This document shows positions 9,201-63,000 of a DNA stretch of 64,000 bases, piece by piece. The position numbers were made by a program, and so were the translations under genes. Location: contig OY811975.1 in assembly GCA_963681505.1 (NCBI GenBank), positions 2,518,149-2,582,148 on the forward strand, written 5' to 3'. Within the stretch, counting starts at the first letter, position 1, and every line of letters starts with the position of its first letter. Source of the DNA: Eunapius fragilis. Its lineage: Eukaryota > Porifera > Demospongiae > Spongillida > Spongillidae. The notes under the pieces are model-generated. The model did not search any database and was not told where the DNA came from. It saw nothing but the letters and a program-made list of their open reading frames with translations.

Positions 9201-10627
9201 ACTTCATCATATACGATAGTAGATAGCATTGATGGATTTGTAAGTTATATAGTGATTCAAACGCAAATGCATGTGCTAATAACATTTTTTACATGTATAC
9301 GCGAGGGGCATTGTCTACGGTATGGATAATCTTTCTCAAGCATGCCGCCATAATGACAAGGAAATAGTGCCAGATTTCATCATATGATACTTACATGGGA
9401 CAGTGTCCAGCTAAATCACCCTTATGGTACTTTCTCAAAATTTCCAAAACAAAGTAGCGCTCGCATTGAAATGTATGGCTAATTATATAAATTCAGCGCC
9501 AAATAACTTTGTGAGGGATAGTCCGATTTAGGATGCGTAAGGACCATTTGACAGAAGCTCATGGGTGTTCAAGGGAAACCAAAAAATTTGAAAACTTGAA
9601 AAACTAGCCAGAAGGGTGATTCTGCTGGACACTGTCCCATATATCTTTTGGATAACATTACAATGGTCAAGTTTATACAGTGATTGAAACGCAACGCGCA
9701 ATTATAACAATTTTTGCATGCATATATATATATACGCGAGGGGCAATTAATCGTGAGCTGCAATCACATGCATGCCTTGGATATGCAATCCCACGCAGGT
9801 CTAGTGAACTCCATGTTATTACATCAAGACAGGCGTTTTCCTGTGTGAACGATTCCAGTTGTAGCCCGTCAAATGTCAATAGTACGGGGGTCAAATGCAT
9901 CAACGGCGCTTGTGTGTGCAGCGGTAGCTGCTTCACACTGGATGGGGCTACAGCCAAATGCAAATTCTCTACTTGTGGCTTGTATACCAATAATGTCTGC
10001 ATTCCCATTGGTCAAAAGTCTCAACTCACTGCCTTTCTGCTCTCGTTTTTTGTTATGCCAACTGGAGCAGCCAACTTTTATATTGGACAAAATGGACTAG
10101 GTATGTATGTATTGATGCACTGCATGAAGATGCATGCAAGTGTAACAAAGTGCATGATGCGTGTCAATACGGCAGCTTACACTGTCGAACTGGCTCCTTT
10201 TACAGGTGGTGCACAATTGGCGGTGTTTCTGCTTTCAATTATCCTCAGCTGTGTATCTTGCTGCGTTAAAATCTGTTTAAGTGGTGGAGATGGAGAAGGC
10301 AGTAGTAAGCTGTACTAATGCGCATGCGTATACATATAATTGTATAATGTATATATATATAGCCCTGTGCTTTGACCATATCCCTCTAAATATGTGTGCA
10401 GATTGTGTAATTGTATGTAGACTCATCTCTGCGGTCATATTAGAACATGCAGTGGTAATAATGTTCTTCATTTAGATCCTTTGGGTACAATTGCAAATGT
10501 GTGTACCAGACTGCTGTCATCGCTGGTAGGACTGGTACTGTTTGCGTGGTGGATAGCCGAGCTGGTGATCATTGGAAAGAACCAACGGCTAACCGGTAGT
10601 GGTTGTGCCCTTACACCTGATCTGTGA
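6298..10627 (+). CDS. TM2-domain membrane protein, copy 2
   Basis: Four-exon model: exon 1 6298-6377, exon 2 9799-10100, exon 3 10206-10304, exon 4 10476-10627 (TGA). Phases agree at each junction (2, 1, 1). Exon 1 encodes a signal peptide (MVSNVV, hydrophobic GCLILMIAHL, EASPME). Exon 2 encodes a Cys-rich extracellular region of about eight to ten Cys, then the first membrane span (LTAFLLSFFVMPTGAANFYIG), the conserved start of a TM2 domain. Exon 3 gives a second hydrophobic segment and exon 4 the final one with FAWWIAELVIIGKN. TM2 proteins are multi-pass membrane proteins, some linked to Notch signalling or phagocytosis in other animals; the role here is unknown. Exon 1 was assigned by its near-identity and matching phase with copy 3. 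The 3.4-kb intron 1 is filled with MITE remnants. Confidence 0.8.
6871..7819. mobile_element. hAT-type non-autonomous element remnant with tandem internal repeat
   Basis: Starts with CAGGGGCGGATGCAGG and ends with TTGGATCCGCCACTG, the ends expected of a hAT-type MITE. Inside, a unit of about 290 bp occurs twice (about 6943-7232 and 7233-7460), sharing TTCCACAGATTGTACAT-like sequence and TTTCCAGGCTATTG. A poly-C tract sits at about 7777-7800. A second, separate right end (TGTATCCGCCACTG) follows a C-tract near 8000-8013. These could be two or three overlapping insertions in intron 1 of TM2 gene 2. Confidence 0.5.
8020..9390. other. Intronic, no further feature seen
   Basis: Part of intron 1 of TM2 gene 2. 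Short ORFs on both strands lack recognisable domains or codon structure. No RNA gene was seen. Confidence 0.6.
9394..9645 (-). mobile_element. 250-bp MITE with TGGGACAGTGTCC ends
   Basis: Imperfect inverted ends: TGGGACAGTGTCCAGCTAAA on the left and TTCTGCTGGACACTGTCCCA on the right. The body matches the copy at 21783-22032 in the opposite orientation, including the phrase TTGAACACCCAT/ATGGGTGTTCAAG. It lies inside intron 1 of TM2 gene 2 just before exon 2. The superfamily is not assigned; the short AT-rich flanks would fit a TA-type target. Confidence 0.75.
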
Positions 10628-21707: not shown

Positions 21708-24700
21708 CTGCAGGATGTGTGTTTCTGAATTCGATTGACAGCTACATGCATATAAATATAAATAATTATATAAAAAATTATATGGGACAGTGTCCAGCAG
21801 AATCACCCTTCTGGCTAGGTTTTCAAGTTTTCAAATTTTTTGATTTCCTTGAACACCCATAAGCTTCTGTCAAATGGCCTTACGCATCCTAAATCGGACT
21901 ATCCATCACAAAGTTATTAGGCACTGAATTTATAATTAGCCATACATTTCAATGCGAGCGTTACTTTTCTTTTGCTTGTTCTGGAAATTTTGAAAAAGTA
22001 CCGTAAGGGTGATTCTGCTGGACACCGTCCCATATATATATATAGTATCGCTCGCTAGTCGTTACGGTTTATATATCGGACTCTTTTTTGAGAGGGCGGA
22101 TTTTATGGAGCTATTGAAAAGAGGTTCTCCTTAATGATGGCGCGCGATGTTGACCCGATACCTAGCTTATACGTGGTGAATTCGAAAGCTGCAGTGTATG
22201 CAGTAGCTGTCATGCACGGTAGTATTCAAGCACAGCAAAACATTACTCAGGCTTCATTATGGCAGTCTTAGTCTGGTGCTCAATCGGTCCATTAGCGAGA
22301 GCAATTTTGGCAAGAAGATCTGCTCCAGATCATGTTTTGTAACCTTATATAGTTAGGTTTAAGACTTAAACCTAACTATATAAGGTTACAAAACATGATC
22401 TGGAGCAGACTTTAAGTGCTTTATTACAGTAGTATAATAGATTACTATGTGCCCAGTATTCTCTTGAATTAGAAAAAAATATTTCAAATAGGTTTTTTAC
22501 GTGGATGAGTACTGAGATGAGACATAGCTTGTACTGTTTCCTCCTCAATTCGCACCAATGGAGGTTTTGAACCCGTCAAATCGCCAATTTAATACAATGA
22601 AGATTTCAAATATAATATGGGACAGCTAGTGTCCCAGCATAATCAGCCTTCTGGGTAGTTTTTCACGTTTTCAACAAATGGTCCTTACACATCCAAAATT
22701 GGGCTATCCATCATAAGGTACTGAATCTATCAGTATAGTCATATATTTCAATGCAAGCATTGCTTGTCCTGGAAACTCTGAAAAAGTATCACAGGGGTGC
22801 TTTTTTTGCTGCATGGACACTTCCATATATTATAAAAATAGAATCTTTTTATGCATGGTTCGGAAGTTATAGTGATTCAAACCAAAACGTGACGACTTTA
22901 TATCATTTTGTTTATATGTTCTTTTTCGTTTTTCAGTTTCCTCGAGAATCAATTTTAAAATCGGAGTTTCAAATGGCGAAATCGCGCAACCATATACACA
23001 CAAGGGGTGCATGAAAACCATAGATTTAGAGAGGGATTGGAAACGGGACTTGTTAACACCAATCAACAGGTTCACTCATTGTAGTAGGAAATAAAATGGC
23101 GGAATCAAGGGAGGGCGATGCTGTAACTGCTTTATAATTATATCAGGTATTTTCTTAAACAAAGAGTCGTGCGTAGGGGTGACAAATGCTATCTATATAG
23201 ACGGAAAGTACATCCTACTGGACGCTGTCCATCAACTTTTAGAAGACGCTTCATTTCGAACGAAATCACCTGTCGCAATAGATCTAAAAGCGTGGCAAGC
23301 AGCTGTACAGATGAATGAATGGTGCAAAAAGGACGCCAATGAATTCATTTTTCAACAGTTTTCTCAGAAACTAGTCACAAAGCTAACAAAGACTTTGCGA
23401 ATCGACGCGCACGGAATCCCGAATAGATACAAAGTGTGGGAGCTGTATTATACTATTCGCGGTTCGTCAAAGCAGTTCACTCTCCCAGCTTATAACCAAG
23501 CTTGATAATGTTAAGCACACCTTCCCTTAGTTCACATTTCCAATGTTATCAGCATATAAAGAATACACAGTATCAATCCCAATCTCAAACATGCTATGTT
23601 GGGGTAAAGGAGCAGGGGCGGATACAAGAGGGGGTGGGGGGGTGGGGGGTGGGTGTTGGGGGGTTGCAACCCCCCTTTCATATAAGGTACCTCCTGAAGC
23701 GGACCCCTCCTCCCCCCACGCTTTTCGTATCGCGGTTCTCAACCCCCCCCCCCCCCCCCCCACTTGGAAAATCCTGCATGTATCCGCCCCTGAGGAGAGA
23801 CTAAATGTTTCAACTTGAAGCAAAGCTGTTCCACGGTTGTAGCTGGCTTTTCCACATAGAATTGTAAAGGGAGAGAAACCAAAAAGGACAACTTTTGTCT
23901 CTTCTTCCTTTCGTAGTTCTTTGTACTTGTGAGTCGCAATCGGCGATGTCCACCCGTTCACACCTAAGTTTCAATTAGAAAAATTAAAATAGAGTAGGCT
24001 ATCTAGTGTCACGTTGTCATTACACCAGTTCGTTCACGCAATCAGTACACAACAAGAAAAACGAATAATATAATTGCAAAATAGGTCCCAGCGCACGCTG
24101 TACGTCCACAACCGTACGCATGTCCAAAAGGTTATTGGCCACTCTGTTACAAGTATACAAAGCGTATTAGAGCCAAAACCTATCTAGTTCGATTTGTTTT
24201 AGCAAGCGCCGCTCGATTATACACAAAAATAGTCAATATGAGAAAGCTAACGTTTCCTACACGCCCACAAAGGCATCGCTAACACACGGAACGCTGGTCT
24301 AATGAAAAACTCGCTTCTAAATACATTTCCAGTCAGAAGCATACGTTTCCTAATATCCATACCTTTGAAGCAAGTCGCAGGACGCAAGAGAAAGCCTCAA
24401 ACTAGACAAAGACCTGTGTTTTTTTTTTTCAAAAAAGTTCCAGTAACCTGGTCGCAAAGAAAGTGTTAATTGATACTACATTAACGGACCGAAGGGTGCA
24501 CAATATGATGTATGTATCACTTGATCCATTTCCAATCCCTCCCTAAATAATCTGTGTGAACTGTCCCATATAATTCTTTAATTGTCTTGTAGCACGTGTT
24601 AATAATTTACAATATTTCTCATGTATAGGACTAGGGAACTCCATGTAATTACAGTGAGACAGGCATTTTCCTGTGTGAACGACTCCAATTGCAGCCCTTC

Positions 24701-25462
24701 AAATATAAGTAGTACGCCGGGGGTCAAATGCATCAACGGCGCTTGTGTTTGCAGCGGTAGCTGCTTCACACTGGATGGGGCGACATCCAAATGCAAATTC
24801 TCTACTTGCGGCTCGTATACCAATAATGTCTGCACTCCCATTGGTCCAAAGTCTCAACTCACTGCCTTTCTGCTCTCGTTTTTTGTGATGCCAACTGGAG
24901 CAGCCAACTTTTACATCGGACAAAATGGACTAGGTATGTATCGATGGGCTGCAAGTCAATGTGTAAGAACATGCATGATTTGTGTGCAAGTATGGGTTAA
25001 TAAAATTAAGCTGCTATGTGTGGTCGTCAATAAAGTGATCAATGTTGCAGTATACAAAACTGAACTAGTTTCATTTTACAGGTGGCGCACAATTGGCGTT
25101 GCTTCTACTTTCAATTTTACTCGGCTGTATATCTTGCTGCGTTAAAAGCTGCCTAAGCGTTCTCAAAAGTTCAGAAGGTGGAGAAGGCAGTAAGTTATAC
25201 TCATGCAGCGCATGCGTATAGCCCTGTATAATTGTGTAATTGCATGTATGCGTAGATTCCTCTCATAACCATGCCATATCAATTCAGTGGTCATCATTTT
25301 CTTCATTTAGATCTTTTGGGTGCAATTGCAAATTTGTGTACCAGACTGCTGTCATTGCTGATAAGCCTGATACTGTTTGCGTGGTGGATAGCTGAGCTGG
25401 TGATCATTGGAAAGAACCAACGGCTGACCGGTAGTGGTTGTCCCCTTACAGCTGACTTGTGA
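20486..25462 (+). CDS. TM2-domain membrane protein, copy 3
   Basis: Four exons: 20486-20565, 24629-24933, 25082-25189 and 25311-25462 (TGA). Splice phases match those of copy 2 (2, 1, 1), and intron 1 is 4.06 kb. Exon 1 encodes a signal peptide (MVSNVV, hydrophobic GCLFLMLAGL, EASPME). Exon 2 encodes a Cys-rich ectodomain (KCINGACVCSGSCF, KCKFSTCGSY) and the first span with MPTGAANFYIG. Exons 3 and 4 give two more hydrophobic segments, ending FAWWIAELVIIGKNQRL. Three paralogues within 25 kb in the same direction indicate tandem duplication. Exon-1 surroundings and parts of intron 1 also align with copy 2. No defect is seen. The family is firm; the function is not established. Confidence 0.82.
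21783..22032 (+). mobile_element. 250-bp MITE, best copy of its family
   Basis: TGGGACAGTGTCCAGCAGAA at the left end and TTCTGCTGGACACCGTCCCA at the right end are inverted repeats. The flanks are TAT/ATA-rich. Related copies: 9394-9645 (inverted), a diverged one at about 22617-22836, and half of one at 16788. It is inside intron 1 of TM2 gene 3. Confidence 0.8.
22319..22409. repeat. 91-nt near-perfect palindrome
   Basis: Arms of 45 nt, TCTGCTCCAGATCATGTTTT and onwards, are exact inverted copies around a single central A (GGTTTAAG-A-CTTAAACC). No transposon ends or coding potential are recognised. In vivo it could form a long hairpin or cruciform. It may also be a cloning or assembly fold-back. 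Confidence 0.85.
23179..23505 (+). CDS. Unrecognised ORF of 108 codons
   Basis: Reads like protein (IYIDGKYILLDAVHQLL, ALVMNEWCKK-like and LPAYNQA segments) with a plausible 3' splice site (ATATCAG) just upstream near 23146. I do not recognise the family. It lies inside intron 1 of TM2 gene 3, same strand, so it is probably the remnant of an inserted element. Confidence 0.3.
   Translation: MTNAIYIDGKYILLDAVHQLLEDASFRTKSPVAIDLKAWQAAVQMNEWCKKDANEFIFQQFSQKLVTKLTKTLRIDAHGIPNRYKVWELYYTIRGSSKQFTLPAYNQA
23613..23792. mobile_element. hAT-type MITE with G- and C-tracts
   Basis: Begins CAGGGGCGGATACAAGAGGG and ends TGCATGTATCCGCCCCTG. Internally it is a G-rich half and a C-rich half that can pair. 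Same end family as 6145-6283, 6871, 26467 and 31975. The flanks TAAAGGAG/AGGAGAGA do not give a clean 8-bp duplication. Confidence 0.7.
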
Positions 25463-29576: not shown

Positions 29577-30150
29577 TTAATACAATATGCCATAACTGGT
29601 AGTGGTATTAGTTCTGTGACCCCTGCGGTACCGCGAAGCACATTTAGCCAATCGGACAGCAGGGTCATTCCAATACCGACCGCGACTCCTTTTAGATGCT
29701 TTAATGGCAGCTGAATTGTCCTCGTATTTCTGCCTGTTAGCAGGTGCAGCGCGGTTTCCCCCGAGGTCCTCTTCATATCGCCGCCTTTTAGCAGCACGGT
29801 TCTCCTCGAGGTCGTCTTCATATAGCCGCCTTTTAGCAGCACGGTTCACCTCGAGGTCCTCTTCATATCGCCACCACCTTTTAGCAGCACGGTTCACCTC
29901 GAGGTCCTCTTCATATCGCCACCACCTTTTAGCAGCACGGTTCACCTCGAGGTCCTCTTCATATCGCCACCACCTTTTAGCAGCACGGTTCTCCTCGAGG
30001 TCCTCTTCATATCGCCACTGCCTTTTAGCAGCACGGTTCTCCTCAAGGTCCTCTTCATATCGCCACCTTTTAGCAGATCGCTTAGATTCAATATCTGCGT
30101 TGTAGTTGTCGCATACAGAGGCCTTCTTCTATTCGGGATTGGCCTTGTAG
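29577..30150 (-). pseudogene. Charged tandem-repeat protein fragment (NRAAKR..RYEEDLE repeats)
   Basis: On the minus strand about eight 48-bp units encode a 16-residue repeat of the type NRAAKRWWRYEEDLE, followed by a basic tail that stops at 29577. Upstream, the same frame reads YKANPE, then TAG, then KKAS, so an in-frame stop separates it from an N-terminal part near 30130-30170. Similar KAAKRRRYEENPE-like repeats occur, as I remember it, in repeat-derived sponge and cnidarian proteins. The plus-strand Arg/Ser-rich ORF over the same units is a shadow. Confidence 0.5.
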
Positions 30151-32739: not shown

Positions 32740-33269
32740 TCACTTTTCATAACTCCGGAAACGCATATTTAAGATGATATACTTCATTGCACAGTTCTGG
32801 GGCGAAAAGTATTTTTCTAATCCCCCCCCCCCCCCCCCTTCGCCACAAACTATACTTTACGAACTGAGGCAGCATAAATCAAGTTATATTAGGGGGCGAA
32901 AAAAGGGTTATGAGTCATAAGGGAAAAAAATTTGCTCCAGTTCTGAAAGTGTGCGTTTAGCTCCTGCGTTGAATTGCTCCTTGTTTCTGAAATAGAAAAT
33001 GTTCACGACTTTCTTTGGACTGCTAAACGTGCGCTATCTGATTCGTGCCTTTTCGGCGCTGTGGAAAGACACGAAGGGATCGAAGCATGAAAGCTTTACA
33101 TTCTCGTTTACACCAAATGTCACATATATACTTACGCACTGCACAGGTGGTGGTGGTACGTTCCGTGTACATGTGCAGGTACCACACAACAGAGGTGATG
33201 CAATCACAGAAATTAATTAGCATGAGTCTATACATGCAAAGCAATTCCACTTACGCCACCTGGGGGTTG
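32740..33269 (-). CDS. Last micro-exons and possible terminal exon
   Basis: 33269-33255 is a 15-nt exon (acceptor TTAG) with an alternative CAG acceptor that would leave 5 nt and break the frame, so the 15-nt form is preferred. 33138-33136 carries the sixth Cys codon. 32863-32861 has a weaker GTAAAG donor. The proposed terminal exon (acceptor TTTTCGCCCCAG, 32796 to TGA at 32742-32740) stays in frame but adds an odd seventh Cys, and no polyadenylation signal is obvious. This 3' end is the least certain part. Confidence 0.45.
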
Positions 33270-36200
33270 CTAATTGGTACACGAGTCCACGCCGTGACAG
33301 GAGCGCATCGTTTAAGTTTAATTTGTGGAAAGAGAGTCACAAAGGACGAAACGAATATGAACGATGAATAGACATTCTCGCAATAATACACTTACGAACT
33401 AACGAAGCGTCAGAGTGCATGCAATGTGGGATGAAGTGCAACGTAACGTGCATGAGCGCGCATCCATCATATGCGGCAAACAGTGCGTGGCTACTTACGC
33501 CCTGTGTATAGTCACGTCGAGGGCAGAAGTCATTTAAGTTTATTTCATTATCGGAACGGGAAGAACTTGGTCAATGACATAACTCACCCACTTAGTTAAA
33601 AGTAGAAAGGGTAAAGTATATATACGTGAGTGAAGAGACTGATATAAAATTCTGCTTCAGCGATGTACTTACGACCTGCAGTGTTGAGGTATTCATGTAG
33701 GGTGAGGTGGTGCATGTTTATAGAGATGCTGTTGTACCAGTGCGTAGTGATGGACTTACCCACTGAATGGACAAACCACGTGACATGCTGTTCGAAAATT
33801 TGTATAACACAATTCACTTACGCACTGCATTTATTTGGAAGCACGCAACGGGTTAACAGTGATCACAACTGAGCAGAATTCGACATTGACGGAAAGATTA
33901 ATTATTGTACTTACGGCCTGCATATGTTATTAAGTCCATGAGAGGAAAATGTTCGAAGTAAAGTATTAATAGAGCCAATATTATGCACTTACGTTCTTCG
34001 GAAGTTTATATAATAAGTCCCGTAATACAATCAGTAAAGATGAGCGTACTGCATCAAACAAAATGGTTGCAACTTACGTCCTGCAAAAGAAACATGCAGG
34101 AAAGGGGGGGGGGGGGGGGGGGGGAGAAGAATGCAAATGACACTGCATGCGCAAGTAATCGTAAATAGATATGTTTACTTTCTAATAGTTGAATTATATC
34201 AGCAGCGTACGAATGAAAGAACACAAAAGAGTTATAGTTTCTTTCTGCAACTAGAGCACTTACGCACTGCAAGACAAAGGAAGGATATGTTTAGACATGC
34301 ATTACTATCGTCTAGGGCAACTTACACACTTCATAATGCAACGCACAGGAAATCATGATGCAAGCATTGTTTACATAAATAGAAGTATTGGTTGGTTTCA
34401 CCACGGCGTTCGTATGCACAACAGTTTCACGTGGTAAATAGCATTGTAAAAATTATGTTTGTAACGAAACCCACTCGCTGTGGATCATTTCCGTGCATTA
34501 TTCCCCAACAAAGCGTGAAAAGGAATTAATTGATGAATCAATAATGTTAACCAGCGAAAATGGCCGTCTCACCCCCTGAAAGAGAGAAACGGAATTAAAC
34601 AATGAGGTATAAAATCAATCTACTGGCGGGCTCGTTTAGGAACTACCCTAACGCAAAACCAGCAGAGCGGCGTCTTAATTGCACCATTAACATGAATTAA
34701 AGAACTGAGGGCGTCAGTTGAACTCACCCACTGCAAGTAAAAAAAGACAGAACGTTGTAAAAATATTCCTGCCTACCGTTAATACACTAATATCGTTATA
34801 CTTACAGGAGGCTGCATATTCATATTCCACGTGGCGTATATGCAAACCAAACAGACAAAATGCAGGGCATGTAAAGTGCAAACCAATACGTTCATGCGCA
34901 GAATCTTCACTTACACAAAGCTGCTCCATCGAGGTTCAACAGGATCGTTTGTGCGTGACCACACAAGAGTGCTCTCAAAACTTGAATTATATAGGCTGTC
35001 AAATTGTCACTTACACCGATCTAACGTAGTTTTGAAAAAATAAATAAAAGTGCATGTTATAATCGTACAAGTATCTCTTTATAACTGTATATGTGTTATG
35101 GGTACGAACAAATCATATATTGGACCATACGTGCACCATATCCATCGAGAGTATTGCATGGACGGGTTATTAAACCTTAAATAAACCGTAAGACGTACAT
35201 TTATATCATGCAGTACTGCCATACAATACATATTGGATAATCTCCCATCATTGTTTTAAACGTTTTCAATGCATGGGCCGCATGTAAGGTTTGCCCGCGC
35301 GCTAAAACTGACAAACGCATTCGATTCGCTCGGTATACAATATTGCCAAATGAATGTCCCCCGTATAATGATAGATACATGCTATATACTAGCGTCAATG
35401 TACTACAAGCATGCCTTGGTGTGTATTTTCTATTTACATTTTTACATGTATGGTCTAACAAACTTACAATGCACTTGATTGTGGTCACGTGGCAGGAAAA
35501 GGAAAAAAAAAATGGCATGCAGCATTTTAAGCAATAGATTAGTACGAATGATGAAACCGCTTACGGGATACCCCCGACGTTGTCTATCAACAATCACGTT
35601 GTAAAATCAAGACCGTGCTTAATACTGTCAAGAAAAAATACATCAGCTAGCTCACTCGATCACATCCCCGTTCGAGTTCACTGGATATGGAAACAGAATA
35701 AAATTTTGCATCATCACATCGGCCTGTATATATGTTAGCTTTGTACCATCGTTTCATTTACCGTATGATTGACTTAACACCGCGTCCGCGAGTAATCTGG
35801 GTCACCATTTGGGGGCATTTAAAAAAATAAAAGGTCCGCTAGTAATGCAGTCGTAAGCACTATATGAAATTCTAGTACAAGAACCTATTGGATTATACTA
35901 AGAATCTATCCTGTACCAAATGGATTTGTTGTAGAAGAGATGTACATACTTTTAATAATGCGGTTCGGTACTCAAAAAGGCATGTATAAAGTGGATTTTG
36001 AATGTTAATACAAATACTAAAACACTTCCTGATCACGTACTTACTTGTGCTAGAAATAAAAATCACGTTTTTATCCTTTAAACAAATGCCAATTCTCCAA
36101 GCAATTGCGATGAAGCTGATGGGACCAGTCCAATTACTGCAGTTAACTAACCACCAATAGTTAATGTACGGGATCAATGGATTCTGCAGAACAGCCTCAT

Positions 36201-39200
36201 CGTTGCAAATGCAAAGTTGGATCTTGTCCATTGTGTGGCAGCGCATGCAAAAGATGCGGATGTGCTTGTGATGGGGTAGAGCCTGGAGTGGCGCTTGCTC
36301 GGAGTTCTGGGCAACGTGGTCCGAAGCGACTATCGACTGGCAGCGAGCAACGAGATGCAGCGAAAAGGGCTAGAATTGAGATTGCAAAGGCAACAGAGCT
36401 AGAGGAGCGAACCATTGGGACGGAGCCATCTATTAAACAGGTAGAATCAGTGCATGATCTATGGCAAGCGTTTGGATGGAGCCAAGCAACCAAGAAGAAG
36501 CTGCCTAACGAAGATTTGAGGAAAGGTGATGTGTTGCTAAAGGAATCAGGTGGTTCAGGATGGAGTACGATGGTTCAAAGCGTTCTTGCAGCAGTGGTTA
36601 GATGTGCTGAAATCTTGTATCCAGCAAACTCTGACTCCCTATTAGAAGAAGTTGCCGCCAGACTTTCACAAAGCTCAAGTTCAATTACTACAAAGGATGA
36701 AAATAAAGTTACTGAAAACACAATCATGATCATGAATGCTAGTCAGAAGCGCTCCATTCAGGCACGTGTTGCTCGTGCAATTTTGGTGAAGGGACTTCCA
36801 GCTCATCGCATACAATCTTTGAAGAGGGACGGTGTTTTCACTCTAGGTGGTTCTTCAGTAGACCAAGCACGGAAAGATTTCAAAGTGATGGAAGCTGGAA
36901 TGTCTCTGTGTATCCCTCCTATAACAAGATGCCGTTTTGATGAACAAATACTTCATGAAGCTGTTATGTTCATTTTATCGAAGGACAATGTTACTCCAAT
37001 ATCTTGGGGGACAAAGCAAATAAAACTCAGTGATGCAGAAACAGTCACCCTACCTTCTCTAACACGCCGAAACTCAGCCAGGCACATGTATGAAAATTAC
37101 ATGGCATTGTGCTCTGAAAGGAGCACAAATTCTGCTGCTGGTGGCTCACATCTATCAATTTCACGGGCAAGGTTTTATGAGATATTGAGAAATATAACAG
37201 CTGGTGGGGAGAAGATGCTGTGTGCTGTCGACTATGTTACAGGGGTTTTGGTAAATGACCAAGTTACCTTGTTGCAAAGAATTGTGGATGACATTGTTGA
37301 TGCAGAAAAGAAGCCTGTATTGACAAACTACATTACGATAATGCGCCTCTTCCTGAAACAGCAATATGATTCTCATGCTTTGACACAGGGAGATGAGGTT
37401 GGAACACATGGGATTGATTATGGTCTTTGTAAACCTGACTTGAGTGTACCAGCTCGTACAGGGAGATGTAATGGGTGCAATTTTGTTAATTTTTGCATAT
37501 CTGAGCTTCAGGAATCAGTTGCAGCAGCGGATGCTTTGGAAGTAATAAAAGATGCTGCTGAAAAATTAGAACTGTATCGAGGGCACAGAGTCCGTGTCAC
37601 CAACCAACAAGTACATTTGGAGAAAATTATCAAAGACATGGAAAAAAAGTGCCTTGAAAACAAGAGAAGTTCTGAAGCGCTTGTTGTTGCGGATTGGAAG
37701 ATGAAATTTGAAGCAATGTCATCTCGTGAAACGTCTCAGCAACACTTTGCAAAACGAGGAATTGGTTGGCATGGGTGTTTATGTTTATACTTCAAGTATG
37801 AAGAACATTCAATCGATGATGGTGGAGTTATAAGTACCACAGGTAGTGCTGTAAGATATACAGTCTATTGTGACCAAATTTTGGAAGGTTCCAACAAACA
37901 GGATGGATTAGCTGTTCTTTCAATGCTTGAAGCATTTCTGAAGCAACTCAGTGTAGAGCTCCCACATATTAGAACTGTGACTCTGCAATCTGACAATGCT
38001 GGGTGCTATCAGGCCAAAGAATTGCTCTTGCTAATTGCAATTTTAAATACCTCAAGCAAAATCAGGATTGTCCGTTTCATCCATACTGAAACACAGGATG
38101 GTAAAGGCTTAATTGATGCCCATTTTGCGAAGGGAACTGCACATCTGATGAAGTTTATGAAAACATCTCAGCAGAATAGAATCAGAACAATTGCAACAGC
38201 AAAAGGTCTTGCTGCAGCTCTTGCATGGGGGGGGGCGGTATTCAAAATTCATTTGTACAGCTGATCACTGTAGACAGAGAAAAGCTTCAGAAATTGAGTG
38301 CAGCAATTGGCAAGGTTGTAAAGGAAGCAAAAGGGTATTTTGCACGCTGCAATGATACGTTTTATATGGAGTGTGAAGGAGAGTGGGCAACTCAGAAATT
38401 GACAGGAATTGAAGAACTGACTAAAGCTGAGATAGTTTTCAATATCAGATGTTTTGCCTACAGTGGCATTGGAGATGGTGTAACATTTCGCACCAGTTTG
38501 AAGACAGGTCTATTTAGGCCATGCAGCTGCAATGCCTCAGTGAATGATCTTGAAGCTGATGGTAAGGATGATGATGATGAATCTACAGATATCGGTGGTG
38601 AAGAATTGTTTGTCGATGCAAATGAGGTAGCTGATTATATATTTCATGTTGAAGGGGATGACAACGAAGTTGAAGATCAAGATGAAGGAGAAGAGAATGA
38701 TGAAGATGAAATTTATAGTGAAGATGAAGATAATGAGATTGCTCCAGCAGGATTCTCAGGCTATGGTGAAAGTGACCTCATAAGGGGGGTAGAATTGCTG
38801 ACTGGTGTTTGCATACAGAAAAGATCTTGTCTTTCCAACATCATGGGGCCTCGTAATCAACATAGAAGTGTTCGTAATCCACATGCAGGGCCTGGAAATG
38901 GACAGCTTATACGACAAGATATGGTGGCAGCAGCGGTACGACTTGCTAGCATTCTTATAACAAACCACAGTGTTAACATCACAAACGGTCATTCTGAAAT
39001 GGAGGAATATAATCTGGCAGCTCATTTTGAGATCTCTGAAAAAAATCATAACCATAAACACCAAGGTTGGGCTAGGCGTCCGCAGCGAGGGGCTCAGTAT
39101 GGTCGATCATACTTGGAACCATACAAGAAGGACATAAAACGGATGTTTGAGCGAGGAGCTCGTGTTTCCTCAGACAAAATGAGTCCATGTGCTATGTTGG

Positions 39201-40628
39201 AGGAGCTTCAGTCTCTCTATCCTGGTCGCTACACCTTACCTGGGGAGAATGAAGTACGTGCAGAAATTACTAAGTTGTTTGGTAGGAAGAAGGCCAGTGA
39301 TGAGGACAATACAGGTAGTGATCATGATGAGAGTGAAAATGAAGCTAAAAGAGGAAGAGGAAGCAATCTACCAAAGCAGTATGTTAAATACCTAGAAGAA
39401 TTGGTAGAGCGCAATCCCACAATCAAGCCTGCTGAAGCCCTGAGAAATCTCAAGGCTGCACTTTGCCTACCACATCCCTCTGAACACGACAAAGCAATCA
39501 CAACCAAAGTTAGTAGTCTAAAAAGAAAAATAAAAGTCAGAGAGAAAGCAAACATTTTGTAATTTTTATTATCGTTATCAATGGTGTGTAGACCGATATG
39601 CTATTTTATTGAACTGAATAGTTTGCCTCGCGACATTGTGTACAGCTAACCTGGTTCCAGTGACTATAGGGAAGGAGAGCATTCACAGCCAACACTGGTA
39701 CTGTGACTAGTGGGCTTTTATTGTATAGTATGGATTGATTTACATGAAGTACATGTTGGGCGCTCCTATCACTAACCAGCCGCGCTAGCGCTATAGTATA
39801 GAGTCCACCCCGATACATACAACGGTTTGCTTGTAAAACGATTTTCTACACAAATGACAATCCTAAAGTCATAGTTTCATTTCAGTTCATATACTATGCA
39901 CTTCTGGAACATTTTGGACGAGCAAAACATCGGATGCCACTGATGTCGACCGGTCACTTGCCAGCTCGTAGATAGCATTGGGCAGACCAATGGTCCTCTC
40001 ACTGAACGCATCAAATGTTGTCTCAAGAGTTGTAGTAACAGTATCCTGTGTCAGAAAAGAAAAATAATAATCAGCGGACCTTTTATTTTTTAAACCTCCC
40101 CCAAATTTTGGCCGTTTTCACCCACTTTACTCGTGGACGCGGTGTTAATTACATCTCGTCTACACACGATATGCCTCGCGGAAATACATAATCTTTATTG
40201 TATAATGAATGCAGTTGTAAGGGATGCCTAGCTGTTACTCCAGTACTTATTAAAAAGCACAACTGACGGTAGTGTATTTACAATCTTTTAGGTGTGTACA
40301 TTCCCGTATATATTGCTTATGGGGTGAACTTTTTATTGACAAACCTCAATTAGAAGTGCTCTACATAACCTTCGTCAGGACAATTACGTGCGCCTTTATA
40401 TTGCATATGCATGCCTTAACGTGTTCTTACATACCGCGCATACATGTGCCAGCTTACCTGTCATTCGTTGCTCGTCAACTTCACCTGAGCGAGAAGTTAT
40501 CATGGAAGTACATTCAACGCTGCGCGAGGCCAGAGGTACTTACCATTCTTTCCGCGTTTGTAGTTCATTTGGCGGGAATGAACGCAGATGGCTAGAAGAG
40601 CGATTATCATAACAGTTTTCATGACCAT
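32740..40628 (-). CDS. Micro-exon gene for a secreted Cys-rich (cystine-knot-like) peptide
   Basis: Minus-strand model: exon 1 40628-40544, exon 2 40484-40458, exon 3 35680-35656, exon 4 35583-35565, then micro-exons at 35473-35468, 35020-35015, 34920-34915, 34811-34806 (6 nt each); 34730-34728, 34575-34573, 34328-34326, 34266-34264, 34080-34078, 33995-33993, 33917-33915, 33824-33822, 33762-33760, 33675-33673, 33590-33588, 33501-33499, 33398-33396 (3 nt each); 33269-33255 (15 nt); 33138-33136 and 32863-32861 (3 nt each); and a possible last exon 32796-32740. Exons 1-4 total 156 nt, so all micro-exons are in phase 0 and the frame stays open for about 98 codons. Cys codons fall in six micro-exons with spacing C-x4-C-x4-CC-x3-C-x10-C. 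I infer a secreted, disulfide-rich peptide; target and activity are unknown. Confidence 0.75.
33396..34730 (-). CDS. Thirteen consecutive 3-nt micro-exons
   Basis: Each exon is exactly one codon between a 3' splice site and a donor: ten have GTAAGT; the exons at 34728 and 33588 have GTGAGT and that at 34573 has GTGAGA. Good pyrimidine tracts precede several acceptors (for example CTCTCTTTCAG at 34576, TTTTTTTACTTGCAG at 34731, TTTGTCTTGCAG at 34267, GTTTCTTTTGCAG at 34081). Introns are 59-244 nt and mostly unrelated in sequence, so this is not a simple tandem repeat. Cys codons are at 34328-34326, 34266-34264 and 33824-33822; Trp codons at 34730-34728, 33762-33760 and 33590-33588. Confidence 0.8.
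34806..35473 (-). CDS. Four 6-nt micro-exons
   Basis: Positions 35473-35468, 35020-35015, 34920-34915 and 34811-34806. Each is two codons flanked by AG and GTAAGT. The first carries the first Cys codon and the third ends with the second Cys codon. The 34920 exon has a second acceptor three bases upstream (GGAG/CAG, a NAGNAG-type site) that would add one residue. Introns between them are 447, 94 and 103 nt. Confidence 0.75.
35565..35680 (-). CDS. Exons 3 and 4 of the micro-exon gene: propeptide-like part
   Basis: Exon 3 (35680-35656, 25 nt) has a strong acceptor (TTTTATTCTGTTTCC..CCAG) and a GTGAGC donor. Exon 4 (35583-35565, 19 nt) has a weaker TAG acceptor and a GTAAGC donor. Together with exons 1 and 2 they bring the frame to phase 0. 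They encode a polar stretch with an Arg-Arg pair a few residues before the first Cys, as expected for a propeptide cleavage site. The match of 25+19 nt to the needed phase supports the model, but these two are less certain than the micro-exon array. Confidence 0.55.
35778..40144 (+). mobile_element. TTAA-target DNA transposon (4.37 kb), near-complete
   Basis: Flanked on both sides by TTAA (35774-35777, 40145-40148). The ends are inverted repeats of about 70 bp: left CACCGCGTCCGCGAGTAATC, then TTTGGGGGCATTT and AAATAAAAGGTCCGCT; right the complement, ending TCGTGGACGCGGTG. One long coding region fills the middle. TTAA targets occur in piggyBac, Kolobok and Sola3 elements. The ends do not look like piggyBac, and a Sola-type origin is my best guess only. 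It is inserted in an intron of the minus-strand micro-exon gene. Confidence 0.85.
36177..39562 (+). pseudogene. Putative DDD/E transposase, single frameshift
   Basis: First frame 36177-38264 (695 codons), second 38225-39562. The two overlap at a run of nine G (38227-38235), where one base fewer than needed shifts the frame; this could be a mutation or a base-calling error. The N-terminus is Cys-rich (HRCKCKVGSCPLCGSACKRC), probably zinc-binding. Candidate catalytic acidic residues are in VVADWKMKFEAM, TLQSDNAGCYQ and KGLIDAHFAKGTAHL. A CNGCNFVNFC motif lies mid-protein. The second part has a long acidic region and a Lys-rich C-terminus. No superfamily was recognised with certainty. Confidence 0.75.
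40544..40628 (-). CDS. Exon 1 of the micro-exon gene: signal peptide
   Basis: The first ATG (40628, context CAAAATGG, matching a Kozak site) starts MVMKTV followed by MIIALLAICVHS, a classical signal peptide with a short basic n-region and hydrophobic core. Later in-frame ATGs at 40622 and 40610 would still give a signal sequence. The exon ends with one base of a split codon at a GTAAGT donor (intron from 40543). The next exon (40484-40458, 27 nt) follows after a 59-nt intron with AACTTCTCGCTCAG as acceptor. Confidence 0.75.
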
Positions 40629-45598: not shown

Positions 45599-47480
45599 CA
45601 GGGACGTAGCACTCAATATATGAGTGGTCCGGCAAATTTAAGTATATTCATAGTAATTACAAAACTGTTTACACAATGAACTGTTGTAGCAAACTTACAA
45701 ATTCAAACAAAGAAAACAACCCTGCCCGATGTTGTGAACCCTTCACAAAGCTATTAAGTGTATCCTTAAGGTCAAGTGTGTCTGTTCTTTCTTTGTGAAC
45801 ATTAAGCATTAATAGGTGATTAAGCCGTTTCTGTAACATTTTGGTCCTGAGATATGTTTTAACCCGCCTAAGAGCACTGAACGATCTTTCTGATGTTGCA
45901 TTTGTTGCAGGCATTACTAAAACAAGTTGAAGCACTTTTTTCACTTCAGACAACAGACTTTGTTGACCCTGAGAGAGAGAGGCGATGTAATCCTTGACAT
46001 CAAAGATACTCATATTATTTTTCAATGGCTCATTTTCTCCTTAAGAACCTGCTGAAAATGCAATCCAAATGTGATAAGTTGTGCCTCAAGTAGACCGTTG
46101 TTAAAATCATCACCATACAAGGAGCAAATACCATTTAGATCATCTTCCAACTTCTCTTGCTTCATTGCTTTTATCAAGAGAGCTTCCAATTGTGTATCCG
46201 GGTTGATCAAAACGTTCTTGTATGGCGGCAAGGATAAAATCTATTACTTCATAATAACCCTGCCTGTATAAGGCATTTGGGTCTGCATAAAAATCACCAT
46301 CAGATTTACCATCATCAAACCTCTTGGGTTTTTTACTGATTCTAGGAAGCTGAGGTTCATCGACATTTTGTTTGGATGCCATAAGGTTACCTTAAAAGAT
46401 CAAAAGATGCATCATTGCGAAGTGATTTTAATATAGCAATAGTCATAACAGCAATTTCATGTCCTTCCATAGCAGACATGGATTTGTGTTGCAGAGTGCA
46501 ACTAAGATTATGAGTGCTTTAAGACCATCTCACCTAAAATGACTCCATACAAGTTATCGAAGGTTTTCATCTGAGCTGATACCCCATGAATTCTTGCTTT
46601 TGCTTCAGTATCATTGCTTACATCAACTGACTCTTCCCATGTCAATTGCAAAACTTCGTAGTTGCTAATAATACTACCAAGTGCATCTGCTCTTACAGTC
46701 CATCTGGTAGGACATAGTGTTCTGATGTTGTTTCTAAAGCATTTCTCATAACCTTGGATTGTTTTACTGTGTCAGCAACAGCAAGATTTAATGCATGACT
46801 GTAGCAATGAGTGAGAATTGCTCTTGGTTCAATGTCTGCTATTTGTTTGGCAACGCCACTCCTTATCCCACTCATCACACTTGCCCCATCATAGCATTGT
46901 CCACGTAGTTTTGACATTGGAAGATTCATTCGTACCATCGCATCCTTGACCACAGATACCAAAGTTGTAGCATCAGTGGAATCCACAGCATATAAGCCTA
47001 AAAACTCTTCATGCACTTGCAGTTCTTCAGTGACATGTCTTATGACAAGTGTGACCTGCTCCATGTTGGATGAATCAGTAGTTTCATCTATCATAATGGT
47101 CAGAAAAGGAGAAGACTGGAGCTCAGCCATGGTTTCTCTTAACACTTGGAGACTTATTGTTTGGATGATTTCATTTTGTATTTCTGGACTGGTGTAAACA
47201 TTGTCCTTTTTAACAAGCCAGTTTTTGAGCATGGTATCACTGTAAGCTTTCATATGCATGAGTTGCCTCTGAGAGCCAATCCTTGTCTACACAGAAACCG
47301 AATGCATTGTATGATTTCAAACAAACCGTGCCGATTATTCTGTTTTTCTGAAGCATGTTGCTTTGACAATAGCTCTCCAACATCTGGGGTTGTAGAAGGA
47401 AGAGTTACCATCACCATTACGGAAAGAGCTTGATTCATGGTTCCTGAACGATACTGTAGCATTCTTTCCAATTAGAGAAG
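45599..47480 (-). mobile_element. hAT transposon, decayed transposase
   Basis: The 3' end reads CAGGGACGTAGCACTCAATA on the plus strand, a hAT-type terminus that recurs at 59102. Minus-strand pieces, N to C: a start near 47460; 46693-47259 with FLTIMIDETTDSSNMEQV, LRGQCYDGASVMSG and ILTHCYSHALNLAVAD (the RNase H-like catalytic region of hAT transposases); 46140-46382 and 46022-46231; and 45669-46025 with the dimerisation motif TSERSFSALRRVKTYLR. Changes of frame, and a stretch at 46390-46690 readable only in part, show it is inactive. The 5' terminus beyond 47480 was not found. Confidence 0.8.
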
Positions 47481-60019: not shown

Positions 60020-63000
60020 CACCTGTTAAAACAGATGATAAAACCGGTGTACACATGAGATATCGATATAATGACTATGCTTACACTGTTTCAAATGGTT
60101 ATTGGCTTAGTATTGAAACTAGTGATTCAAATTACATAAGCACATATAATCATAATCAAAGCTGATTCAAATCCTTTTAACAGTTTCAAAGTGGATGAAC
60201 GCATTAGTGATATATATACATTCATTGTAATGGATGTTAGCTTCTGTTTCACATGTATGAAATGCATGCTTTTGCCATTTTTTTATCTTTCCACAAGGTC
60301 CATAGACATAGATTGTGGTTTGAAGTAATAAGACTGAAGCAATGATTTCAATTTCTGTAGCCCATGTACCCAGTAACTGCATCTCTGCCTGTTCTATGTA
60401 AGTATCCATTGTTTCACCATCATTAATAAGGCAGGACAATTGAGGATTTGCTGCGTTATCAATTATGTAGGTTGTAACCAGTAAGCGAACTTCTTGATGA
60501 TAGTCCTGTGAACCAGTAAGTGAAAATGAAAGTGCTCGAAAAAAGCAATTACCATCAAGAACAATTCTGGTTGTTGAAGATGGACAGTGATTCACTGAAA
60601 CCATTACATGTGTAGTGTGATGTTCCATGTTTCCATGGATGTATGGGAGCCCGAGTAAATTGCAATGATCTTTTTGCCATTCCTTACATACAGGTATGTA
60701 ACAAATTTGAGATATTTGCTCATTTTCAACTGCATCTATATGTATGCCATCTGATAAATTTTCATCTGTTTCCTCCAAACATCGAAGCACATTATCTTCT
60801 GGTACTGGTATGCCATTCTTAGGTTCACTTGGTTGCAATAAGTTCTCAATAGTAACTTCCTTGTCACAGCAAAATGTCCTTTTGTTATATATCCATAGGC
60901 ATAAGTCATCAAGATCTGATCCATCCATTAAAAAATACATGTTTCCAAGTACATTCACAGACTTCAATGCGATGTCACAAGATTTTAACCAAATATTAAT
61001 CAGTTCATTAGCTTTCACCACATTGTATGATGCATCAATGTATGAGCTAACTTTCTTGTTAAATTTTTTTAATTCATCCTGCAGGTTCTCATTAACAATA
61101 ATGAAGCTACCACAAAATACTGCCCTTAATGAAGTGTATCCATAATATTCTCTGAACTCAGTCCACAAAGAAACAGCTAGATCCTTGCTTAGTGCGTATT
61201 CTCCATCTTGTACATTCAGCAGAGTTTCCTGTTAAATAATGTAATAGTACATAAAAATGGTTGAAATGCAAATTTACAACTTACATCAAAATTTTCATCA
61301 TCCTCATTAGCATCATACCTTTGTGTGCAAGCTCCTAACCTCCATAATCGCAATAAACTTGAAGAGTACAGCAGCTCTTTAAGTGTTGCATCACCTGTAG
61401 CATTCTGTGGAACAGTGTTTTCATTCTGCATGATATAATCTCTGTCCTGTCCACTTAAATCTTCAGAAATGCTTTCATGGGAAGTGGAATCTTTTTTAAC
61501 AGTGTGATGTTTCTTCATGGACAGATAGGATGCCTTATGTTCAGCTGATGCTTTATGTGTCAAAGTATGCTCTATCTGTTCCAAAAACACTTTCAAATGA
61601 TCTCCATGAACACGATCTACCTTTCCATTGTCACACCTTTTCACCAAGAAAAGAACCTTTCCTATATCTTTTATTACTTCATATGGGCCCAGCCATTTTG
61701 GATCAAGAGCACCTCCTGCTCGCTTTTTGCGCCTGAAGTCCTTCTTCAATACCTTATCTCCAATGGCAAAATGGATCTTTTGCCCCTCTTTCTGCTGTAA
61801 TTAATCTTCTGTATTTTTTGGGCATTTATCACATTTCTCTTCACATTCTCCAGAATCTCCTTTCTTGCATTGGTTAAGTATACATGACAACAATCCTAAA
61901 CAATTAAGAAAATTCTTATACAGTTTTTAAAGTTACATGTATTTACTTACCCTGTCTTGCTGAGTATCTGGATTCTCATAGTCCTTCCTCATTATATGAC
62001 AGTTCAAAGGCAATATTGCTTTTCTCCCAAACATGACTTCAAAGGGCGAATAAAGGGAAGAAGCATGTTTTCCAGTGTTGTAGGCAAACACATGACAGTC
62101 AATATAGACATTCCAATCTTCCTTTTTCTCATTCACAAATTTGACAATCATGTTCTTCAAGGTTTGATTCCATCTTTCATCTAAGCCGTTGGCCTATATA
62201 GGTAATGGTGCATGGCTGATAGCATTTATGAAATAATAAAGTATAGTATAAGTTATACCTGAGGATGATAAGGTGTCGTGAAGTGCCTCTTAATACCTAA
62301 CAGCTCTGTCATCTCTTTGTCTAAACTATTTCTGAATTCCTTGCCTTGATCTGTTGTAAGCAGCTTTGGGAGTCCCATTCTCATGAAAATCTAAAACATA
62401 TGCGCAAACACATGCAAATAACAAATACCATAAGTAGAATATTAGGATACCTTCAGCAGAGAAGCAGCAACGCTGGTAGCATGCTTACTAGGAAGAGGCA
62501 CAGCATCTACCCATTTAGTGTAGTAGTCTGAAAGTGTAAGGATAAACCTATTGCCGCTGGATAGAAAGCAGGAGTAATAGGGCCAATAAAGTCAATCCCC
62601 ACATGATACCACGGTGAATGAATTGGGACTGGATGCAGCTCAGGTTGAGAGGAAAGTGGCTTCCTACTTGATTTTTGACAGACATCACAAGCAGCAATCT
62701 GTATAGTGCATTAGTGATTAAATCCCACTACACAATTTGAGCGTCAACGAGCAAAAGATCAACAACAAAAAAAAACTTACCATGCTCTTCACATCCCTCA
62801 GGATGCCCTTCCACATAAACCTTTCTTTGATTCTGGCCACTGTTTTAGTGACCCCAAAATGGCCTGAAGTAACATCCACGTGACAAGCCTGTGCAACCCG
62901 CATCTGTTCAGTTCGGTTCTGTATATACCTCACAGTAACTTCCTACGCCAAACAGTACAATCTAACAAAGCTTCGCGGCTAATGCGTGTGTTTGTACCTG

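Follow-up and report, generated by a model that had tools for sequence, protein, structure and literature searches.

Can most of a peptide be encoded by exons that are each a single codon long? The question is raised by a minus-strand locus of the sponge Eunapius fragilis, which lies in a 64,000-nucleotide (nt) stretch of contig OY811975.1 (assembly GCA_963681505.1, positions 2,518,149 to 2,582,148; herein the window). An initial annotation had proposed here one odd gene of about 20 micro-exons, fifteen of them exactly one codon long. The gene is upheld by our analysis and proves to belong to a genome-wide family; very probably, to judge from its sequence, this sponge gene family encodes small, secreted and for the most part cysteine-rich peptides, and almost every residue of the mature peptide would be encoded by a separate exon. 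The splicing and the peptide are deduced from signatures in the DNA.

The window contains 19 matches to the motif AGNNNGTRAGT, where shuffled sequence would give 3.45 (at least 19 in 0 of 100 shuffles); 13 of the 19 are clustered at 33,130-34,732 on the minus strand. Between 35,500 and 33,100 the same strand carries 18 GTRAGT sites, with the nearest upstream AG at 3 nt in 13 cases, at 6 nt in four and at 5 nt in one; the single 5-nt case has another AG at 15 nt. In the rest of the window the distances are scattered. The recurrent minus-strand series of AG, 3 or 6 nt and GTRAGT that had been reported is thus real. It forms an array from 35,473 to 33,136 with 19 micro-exons, 14 of them single codons (14 of 3 nt, four of 6 nt and one of 15 nt), slightly fewer than first counted. 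The proposed extension to 32.86 kb was rejected, as that site (TTC|GTAAAG) lies past the stop codon and has the donor GTAAAG.

The array opens with four 6-nt exons encoding Cys-Ile (micro-exon 1, 35468..35473), Ile-Gly (2, 35015..35020), Leu-Cys (3, 34915..34920) and Pro-Pro (4, 34806..34811). Thirteen 3-nt exons follow in an unbroken row, as had been claimed: Trp (5, 34728..34730), Gly (6, 34573..34575, donor gtgaga), Cys (7, 34326..34328), Cys (8, 34264..34266), Asp (9, 34078..34080), Asn (10, 33993..33995), Ala (11, 33915..33917), Cys (12, 33822..33824), Trp (13, 33760..33762), Val (14, 33673..33675), Trp (15, 33588..33590), Gly (16, 33499..33501) and Phe (17, 33396..33398). The one 15-nt exon of the series, Gln-Pro-Pro-Gly-Gly (18, 33255..33269), and a last single codon, Cys (19, 33136..33138), complete it. 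Thirteen of the 14 single-codon exons have a GTRAGT donor, and one reads GGG|GTGAGA. All 19 micro-exons are multiples of 3 in phase 0; joined, their codons contain no stop and six Cys, both as initially described. The introns between them range from 59 to 447 nt and are indeed mutually unrelated (mean local score 14.6, compared with 14.5 for shuffled introns).

The full model has 23 exons and one frame that is open from ATG to stop, encoding a 98-residue precursor, MVMKTVMIIALLAICVHSRQMNYKRGKN-G-EVDEQRMT-G-RCDDAKFYSVSISSELERGCDR-CIIGLCPPWGCCDNACWVWGFQPPGGC-RRKGTNQIAHV. Its N-terminal segment is hydrophobic (mean hydropathy 3.41); 27 of the 98 residues come from micro-exons, and the mature-looking part lies almost wholly within them. 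Exon 1 (40544..40628, 85 nt, donor gtaagt) supplies the start codon and a signal-peptide-like segment (MVMKTVMIIALLAICVHS...), with a TATA-like tataaa ~80 nt upstream. An in-phase signal-peptide exon with a TATA box had been described; the exon and the tataaa are present, but neither exon 1 nor exon 2 (40458..40484, 27 nt, phase 1 to 1) brings the frame to phase 0, each ending in phase 1, and a further exon is needed. The candidate is exon 3 (35656..35723, 68 nt, acceptor ...gctaacatatatacag, donor gtgagc), previously unmentioned, which is open in the required frame; because its length is 2 mod 3, it joins the phase-1 signal exons to the phase-0 array. The terminal coding exon (33023..33058, acceptor gtctttccacag) runs from Arg-Arg-Lys-Gly to a TAG stop.

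Exon 3 sits just after a DNA transposon (35774..40148, bounded on each side by TTAA, with inverted terminal repeats that begin CACCGCGTCC) that lies outside the message. This 4.4-kb element makes up most of the 4.7-kb intron 2, and its position suggests that exons 1 and 2 (40.6-40.4 kb) and the 35.5-kb array might be parts of different genes, separated or misjoined by the transposon. We regard this as unlikely, since the 68-nt exon joins both parts in frame and the loci L040 and L044 have the same layout. An exon at ~40.04 kb was rejected as belonging to the transposon. Reading the array in phase 1 directly from exon 2 is also open in the window, yet it was rejected because of the stops that the family shows in phases 1 and 2, the similarity to locus L022 in phase 0 and the phase shift provided by exon 3.

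How widespread such arrays are was assessed in the whole genome (219 Mb, 24 contigs), using a pattern of three consecutive donors joined by 3-nt exons with introns of ~50-80 nt. It gave 408 matches; among those listed (~100, on contigs C1 to C5, C5 to 11.4 Mb), 29 distinct places and one minisatellite (L010) remained after merging by eye, and decoding covered part of the 29 places. Because the array introns contain TGAATG, a pattern with 4-nt exons was chosen as control in place of the backward pattern. Of its 203 matches, those listed (C1 to C11:1.24 Mb) are by eye all short-period minisatellites; they fall into five regions, on C2, C3 and C11, and C1, C4 and C5 have none. A pattern of two adjacent single-codon Cys exons gave 72 matches, by eye 57 array-like on 14 contigs and 15 in minisatellites. 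Among the decoded loci, L063 reads PGRGTTCPGDCPDYCCLGK, with nineteen single-codon exons in an unbroken row, L011 reads CGSKCPGGCYNLCCC..., and L041 has 33 exons, 32 of them single codons, with two runs of 16. The terminal exons of L040, L041 and L044 are ambiguous, and the L023 precursor was completed by hand. Two chain exons, ISFWK and MSFWK, were discarded because they result from taking the nearest AG; that exon reads ...DSKDKLLE or DSEDELLE. LRF at the start of L022 was also discarded, being by reading part of an ordinary upstream gene. L063 (C12:3.127 Mb) and L064 (C12:3.139 Mb) lie on opposite strands, are identical across 1,670 intron bases and 57 exon bases, and appear from the sequence to be a very recent inverted duplication or an assembly effect.

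That the patterns also match true minisatellites (L010, the 15 of 72 Cys-Cys matches and, among the matches listed, all those of the 4-nt control), and that several arrays have homologous introns of mostly 75-95 nt (L041, L044, L063, L077), raises the question of whether the arrays are themselves minisatellites whose unit contains AG-NNN-GTAAGT by chance, neither spliced nor translated. The reading frame largely contradicts this. For loci outside the window, the spacing statistics and the conservation of Cys are biased by the way these loci were found, through AG-NNN-GTAAGT and in some cases the Cys-Cys pattern; the phase, stop, AG-exclusion and codon-position tests are independent of the search pattern. 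In 25 chosen arrays, phase 0 is free of stops (0 of 501 codons); the shifted readings contain them, 10 among 476 codons for phase 1 and 40 among 476 for phase 2 (p = 6e-10). Left out of this set were L017 (one TAA), L074 (a stop in the last decoded exon), L019/L020, L049, L050, L055, L057, L064, L068, L076, L080, L081, stretches that overlap arrays already counted, and minisatellite loci. In 22 loci that include L017, chosen from those in hand and in part mutual paralogues, 310 single-codon exons hold 1 stop, compared with 19.7 expected from positional composition.

Codon positions behave differently from their surroundings. When units were compared pairwise within ten arrays, identity was 0.18-0.43 at codon positions 1 and 2, 0.29-0.80 at position 3 and 0.41-0.88 in the intron flanks; position 3 was the most conserved codon position in 10 of the 10 arrays examined. 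Positions 1 and 2 are thus near-random although the flanks are alike, and position 3 changes more slowly. Together with the dissimilar introns within the window, L065 and L016 loci, the absence of stops in phase 0 alone and the signal-peptide exons ahead of some arrays, this makes the minisatellite explanation exceedingly improbable.

Paralogues, compared only at micro-exons with AG and GT aligned in both sequences, reveal rapid codon change in some pairs. Between L077 and L078, 12 of 63 exon positions differ as against 97 of 1,776 intron positions (p = 2e-4), with 7 non-synonymous and 0 synonymous changes. The excess of exon change recurs in L077/L082 (p = 1e-4) and L078/L082 (p = 9e-4), with 9 non-synonymous and 4 synonymous changes each; the exon and intron counts of these other two comparisons in the C20 family are 18/60 versus 240/1,792 and 19/54 versus 238/1,713. 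It is also seen in the C2 pair L049/L050 (8/30 versus 33/816, p = 4e-5) and in L023/L037 (15/42 versus 188/999, p = 0.015). In the C12 group, the introns are 47-61% different, beyond good alignment, and similarity is higher among the exons (28-39% different). Aligned Cys are kept in the paralogue pairs compared. Comparisons with L044 (p = 1e-7 and 9e-5) were not used because the tandem units may be misregistered.

The same data bear on whether the splice sites are real and most single-codon exons are skipped or act as decoys, dividing an intron much as zero-nucleotide recursive sites do, so that the mature message would lack them. Such short exons are hard to recognize, and their adjoining acceptor and donor resemble ratchet points, at which the RS-exon is usually skipped (PMC8605326). 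Decoys need no reading frame, however, yet no phase-0 stop was found in the 501 codons, and the codon-position pattern and the codon change in some paralogue pairs indicate translation; we therefore consider decoys very unlikely.

Signal-type first exons were sought at the window gene and 11 other loci. They read MLKELALLVALLTFVTDARP at L040, MLKELALLIALLAFVTDARP at L044, MLKELALIVTLLALFADARP at L041 and MLVLIAALFALSAIAVEARS at L012 and L014. L040 and L044 share the layout of the window gene: after the signal exon come a propeptide exon whose end is in phase 1, an exon of 2-mod-3 length and the phase-0 codons. Searched against the genome, a first signal peptide (MLKELALLVALL...) has 32 matches at E<=1; of the ten on C1 to C5, eight are followed on the same strand, at a distance of up to 5 kb, by an array of the three-donor pattern; the query gene itself and a copy 100% identical to it account for two of the eight. 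A second signal-peptide query has 3 matches, at the arrays L012, L014 and L017.

As a peptide, the product of the window gene has its closest relative in L022 (on C1), whose micro-exons read ACIFGWCPLKCCDKCYVPGAG and whose terminal exon begins with Cys by eye. The Smith-Waterman score of CIIGLCPPWGCCDNACWVWGFQPPGGC against L022 is 61, a value reached by 16 of 20,000 shuffles, and the introns of the two genes are unrelated (306 pairs, mean score 14.7 versus 14.3 for shuffled introns). The array part of the window gene has its six Cys in knottin order, C-C-CC-C-C (C-X4-C-X4-CC-X3-C-X10-C), and two further Cys lie in exon 3. Conotoxin-like superfamilies combine a shared signal peptide with conserved Cys and hypervariable loops; they differ from the sponge arrays in exon architecture. 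Sponges are themselves a source of knottins, the stryphnines and asteropsins, and the stryphnine precursor consists of signal, intermediate and mature regions (PMC13418204); halichondamide A is likewise described as one of the disulphide-knotted short peptides that sponges make (PMC11382151). The window product would resemble these as a small Cys-rich peptide of sponge origin, a likeness compared here via the PDB search only; the stryphnine paper (PMC13418204) uses none of intron, splic and gene structure in its main text. By analogy, the products of the family are probably secreted defence or signalling peptides.

One locus is of another composition: L044 (C5:10.69 Mb) reads ATPPTPPPIWWKKTPAW, its single codons being A-T-P-P-T-P-P-P-I-W-W-K-K-T-P-A-W. 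We take this peptide to be reminiscent of sponge proline-rich cyclic peptides. Precursors of sponge proline-rich macrocyclic peptides were reportedly described by Lin et al. in 2024 (PNAS). Sponge-encoded precursors of this kind are also cited in PMC11382151.

The introns also carry a signature of splicing. In nine arrays with unrelated introns, AG occupies 6 of 2,546 positions in the 20 nt before acceptors and 239 of 7,385 elsewhere in the introns, a 13-fold depletion (p = 1e-23). An AG exclusion zone of this kind is usual for real 3' splice sites. Donor positions +3 to +6 are kept in the arrays (for example, 2 of 72 changed in L077/L078), and only 25 of 310 single-codon exons (22 loci) end in G, so that the donor must be recognized chiefly through its intron bases. 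This may be the reason for the strict GTRAGT, a strictness that comes partly from the search pattern. A secreted-peptide gene of single-codon exons, as first proposed, thus fits the tests made on the DNA: the open frame, the L022 similarity, the phase-specific absence of stops, the AG exclusion, the variation by codon position and, for some arrays, the signal-peptide exons.

Such a transcript might be spliced most simply by intron definition working stepwise from the 5' end, because a 3-nt exon can hardly hold U2-side and U1-side complexes together. The short introns would be recognized by intron definition and removed one by one, in an order that we infer to be 5' to 3'. Each acceptor would add three nucleotides together with an intact GTRAGT donor for use in the next step, so that after every step the upstream exon would be of normal size, with NNN|GTRAGT at its end; U1 would pair with the intron part of the donor. 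For a one-nucleotide exon of Arabidopsis, a combined intron-definition and recursive model has been proposed, which agrees with a stepwise view (PMC4674806).

Such a ratchet would be like recursive splicing, except that one codon would be retained per step. In both an acceptor lies directly ahead of a donor (3 nt apart for 13 of the 18 window GTRAGT donors), and the stepwise use of recursive ratchet points would regenerate a donor (PMC8605326). In recursive splicing zero nucleotides are kept, whereas the codons here bear signatures of translation and the introns are short. Isolated exons of 1 and 3 nt are known, the single-nucleotide exon of Arabidopsis APC11 (PMC4674806) and 3-nt exons (PMC8831610); like these, the sponge exons are too small for exon definition, but they occur many in series and make up most of the mature peptide. 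Among the papers listed in the literature searched, with preprints and most subscription journals outside its coverage, we met none on single-codon exon runs or on sponge micro-exon genes. The exons of schistosome micro-exon genes measure 6-36 nt. They are described as very small and symmetrical and as making up most of the coding region, with products found in secretions and accelerated evolution (PMC4350168). The likeness extends to the very small symmetrical exons; the organism differs, as do the runs of exactly one-codon exons (13 in the window, 19 in L063, two of 16 in L041).

Schistosome micro-exon genes also vary the inclusion of their small symmetrical exons (PMC4350168), and since each of the 19 micro-exons in the window has a length divisible by 3 and lies in phase 0, skipping any of them would keep the frame. 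The codons might accordingly be translated with a different subset in each transcript, giving a mixture of peptides from one gene. Strict donors suggest constitutive use instead, and the aligned Cys kept in paralogues (partly by the way loci were found) suggest that complete frameworks matter; alternative inclusion is a lesser possibility that we hold somewhat doubtful.

How arrays of this kind could arise is suggested by differences among their introns. Introns within L041, L044, L063 and L077 are homologous (mean local score 58-102 versus ~15 when shuffled) and most measure 75-95 nt; those within the window, L065 and L016 arrays are not alike, and L022 is near background except for one or more pairs. 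In L044, 12 of 16 introns are exactly 86 nt and 14 of 17 codons are CCA, ACA, TGG or AAA; by its sequence this would be a young array. Residues would be gained when a unit of ~90 nt, consisting of one codon and its intron of ~86-88 nt, is duplicated in tandem, with the frame never shifted. Over time the introns would lose their similarity until the codon and splice signals alone persist. Change would then accumulate in the codons other than Cys, rapidly in some families, and Cys and splice signals would be retained, as in families of toxin-like or defence peptides. Conventional exons would give the signal peptide and propeptide, and a frame-setting exon, phase-0 single codons and a short terminal exon would follow. 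More tentatively, codon-per-exon genes could be a peptide-diversifying system with the duplicated codon and intron as evolutionary unit; any subset of codons could be joined in frame, so that a splicing ratchet might yield a combinatorial disulphide-rich library, an idea we put forward as speculative.

Several results weigh against a family of translated single-codon exons. The window precursor has no relative at E<=10 in 5.8 billion proteins (in a search that needs shared 5-residue words), matches 0 Pfam families in full length or without exon 3, and in its 27-residue part finds chance matches only in the PDB (E 4.8 and above); the search with a sister precursor gave 10 relatives, which have the look of unspliced read-through. 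The ~620 nt downstream of the terminal exon contain no common poly(A) signal, and just 7 of 19 window introns contain YTRAY branch-point-like words. The backward control of the array pattern gave 245 matches to the 408 forward. L017 (C1:18.03 Mb) has TAA in one single-codon exon where the aligned L012 has Tyr and L019 Asn, and is perhaps a pseudogene or skips the exon; the L074 decode ends in a stop-bearing exon. Signal-type first exons were found at the window and 5 of the 11 other loci scanned, some of them truncated, with no convincing one at L042, L019, L022, L054, L061 and L074, and 2 of the 10 signal matches on C1 to C5 lack an array. Position 3 is the last base before the donor, and splicing may help to hold it. 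Exon change is not in excess in L075/L076 (p = 0.67), L079/L081 (0.24), L080/L081 (1), L054/L049 (0.25) and L054/L050 (0.63), and L079/L080 gives p = 0.05; the C1 18-Mb group, L016/L021 and L054/L055 have like exon and intron rates. Cys found through the Cys-Cys search are kept by construction, and in the C20 group just 2 of 5 counted Cys are free of it.

Other features accompany the gene. The L040 precursor has three sub-threshold Pfam matches. The transposon contains two overlapping plus-strand open reading frames (ORFs; 36165-38264 and 38180-39562) with no Pfam match at E<=0.001. Duplicated plus-strand ORFs at 9656-10318 and 24606-25145 encode similar Cys-bearing membrane-like proteins with a weak sub-threshold Pfam match to late nodulin, and AGGCAGTRAGT recurs at 10,024, 24,857 and 25,185. 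A coding-like tandem repeat at 29577-30128 is rich in Arg and Glu and open on both strands. ORFs at 60167-61800 (minus strand) carry an OTU-like protease domain together with an integrase C-terminal match below threshold, and are by sequence probably a retroelement remnant; at 46693-47286 (minus strand) there is a match to DUF4371, a domain usual in proteins derived from hAT-like transposons. The named relatives of a neighbouring receptor-like gene are Ephydatia muelleri proteins (54-57%, one assigned by its Em prefix).

Long series of single-codon exons probe the lower limit of what the spliceosome can join, and they make models of intron definition and stepwise splicing directly testable. 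They imply a class of secreted sponge peptides that would easily escape standard gene prediction, as well as aligners unable to place 3-nt exons. For the family itself they suggest that introns may serve as a scaffold for peptide diversification, in which a codon and its intron are duplicated and the protein becomes one residue longer in frame.

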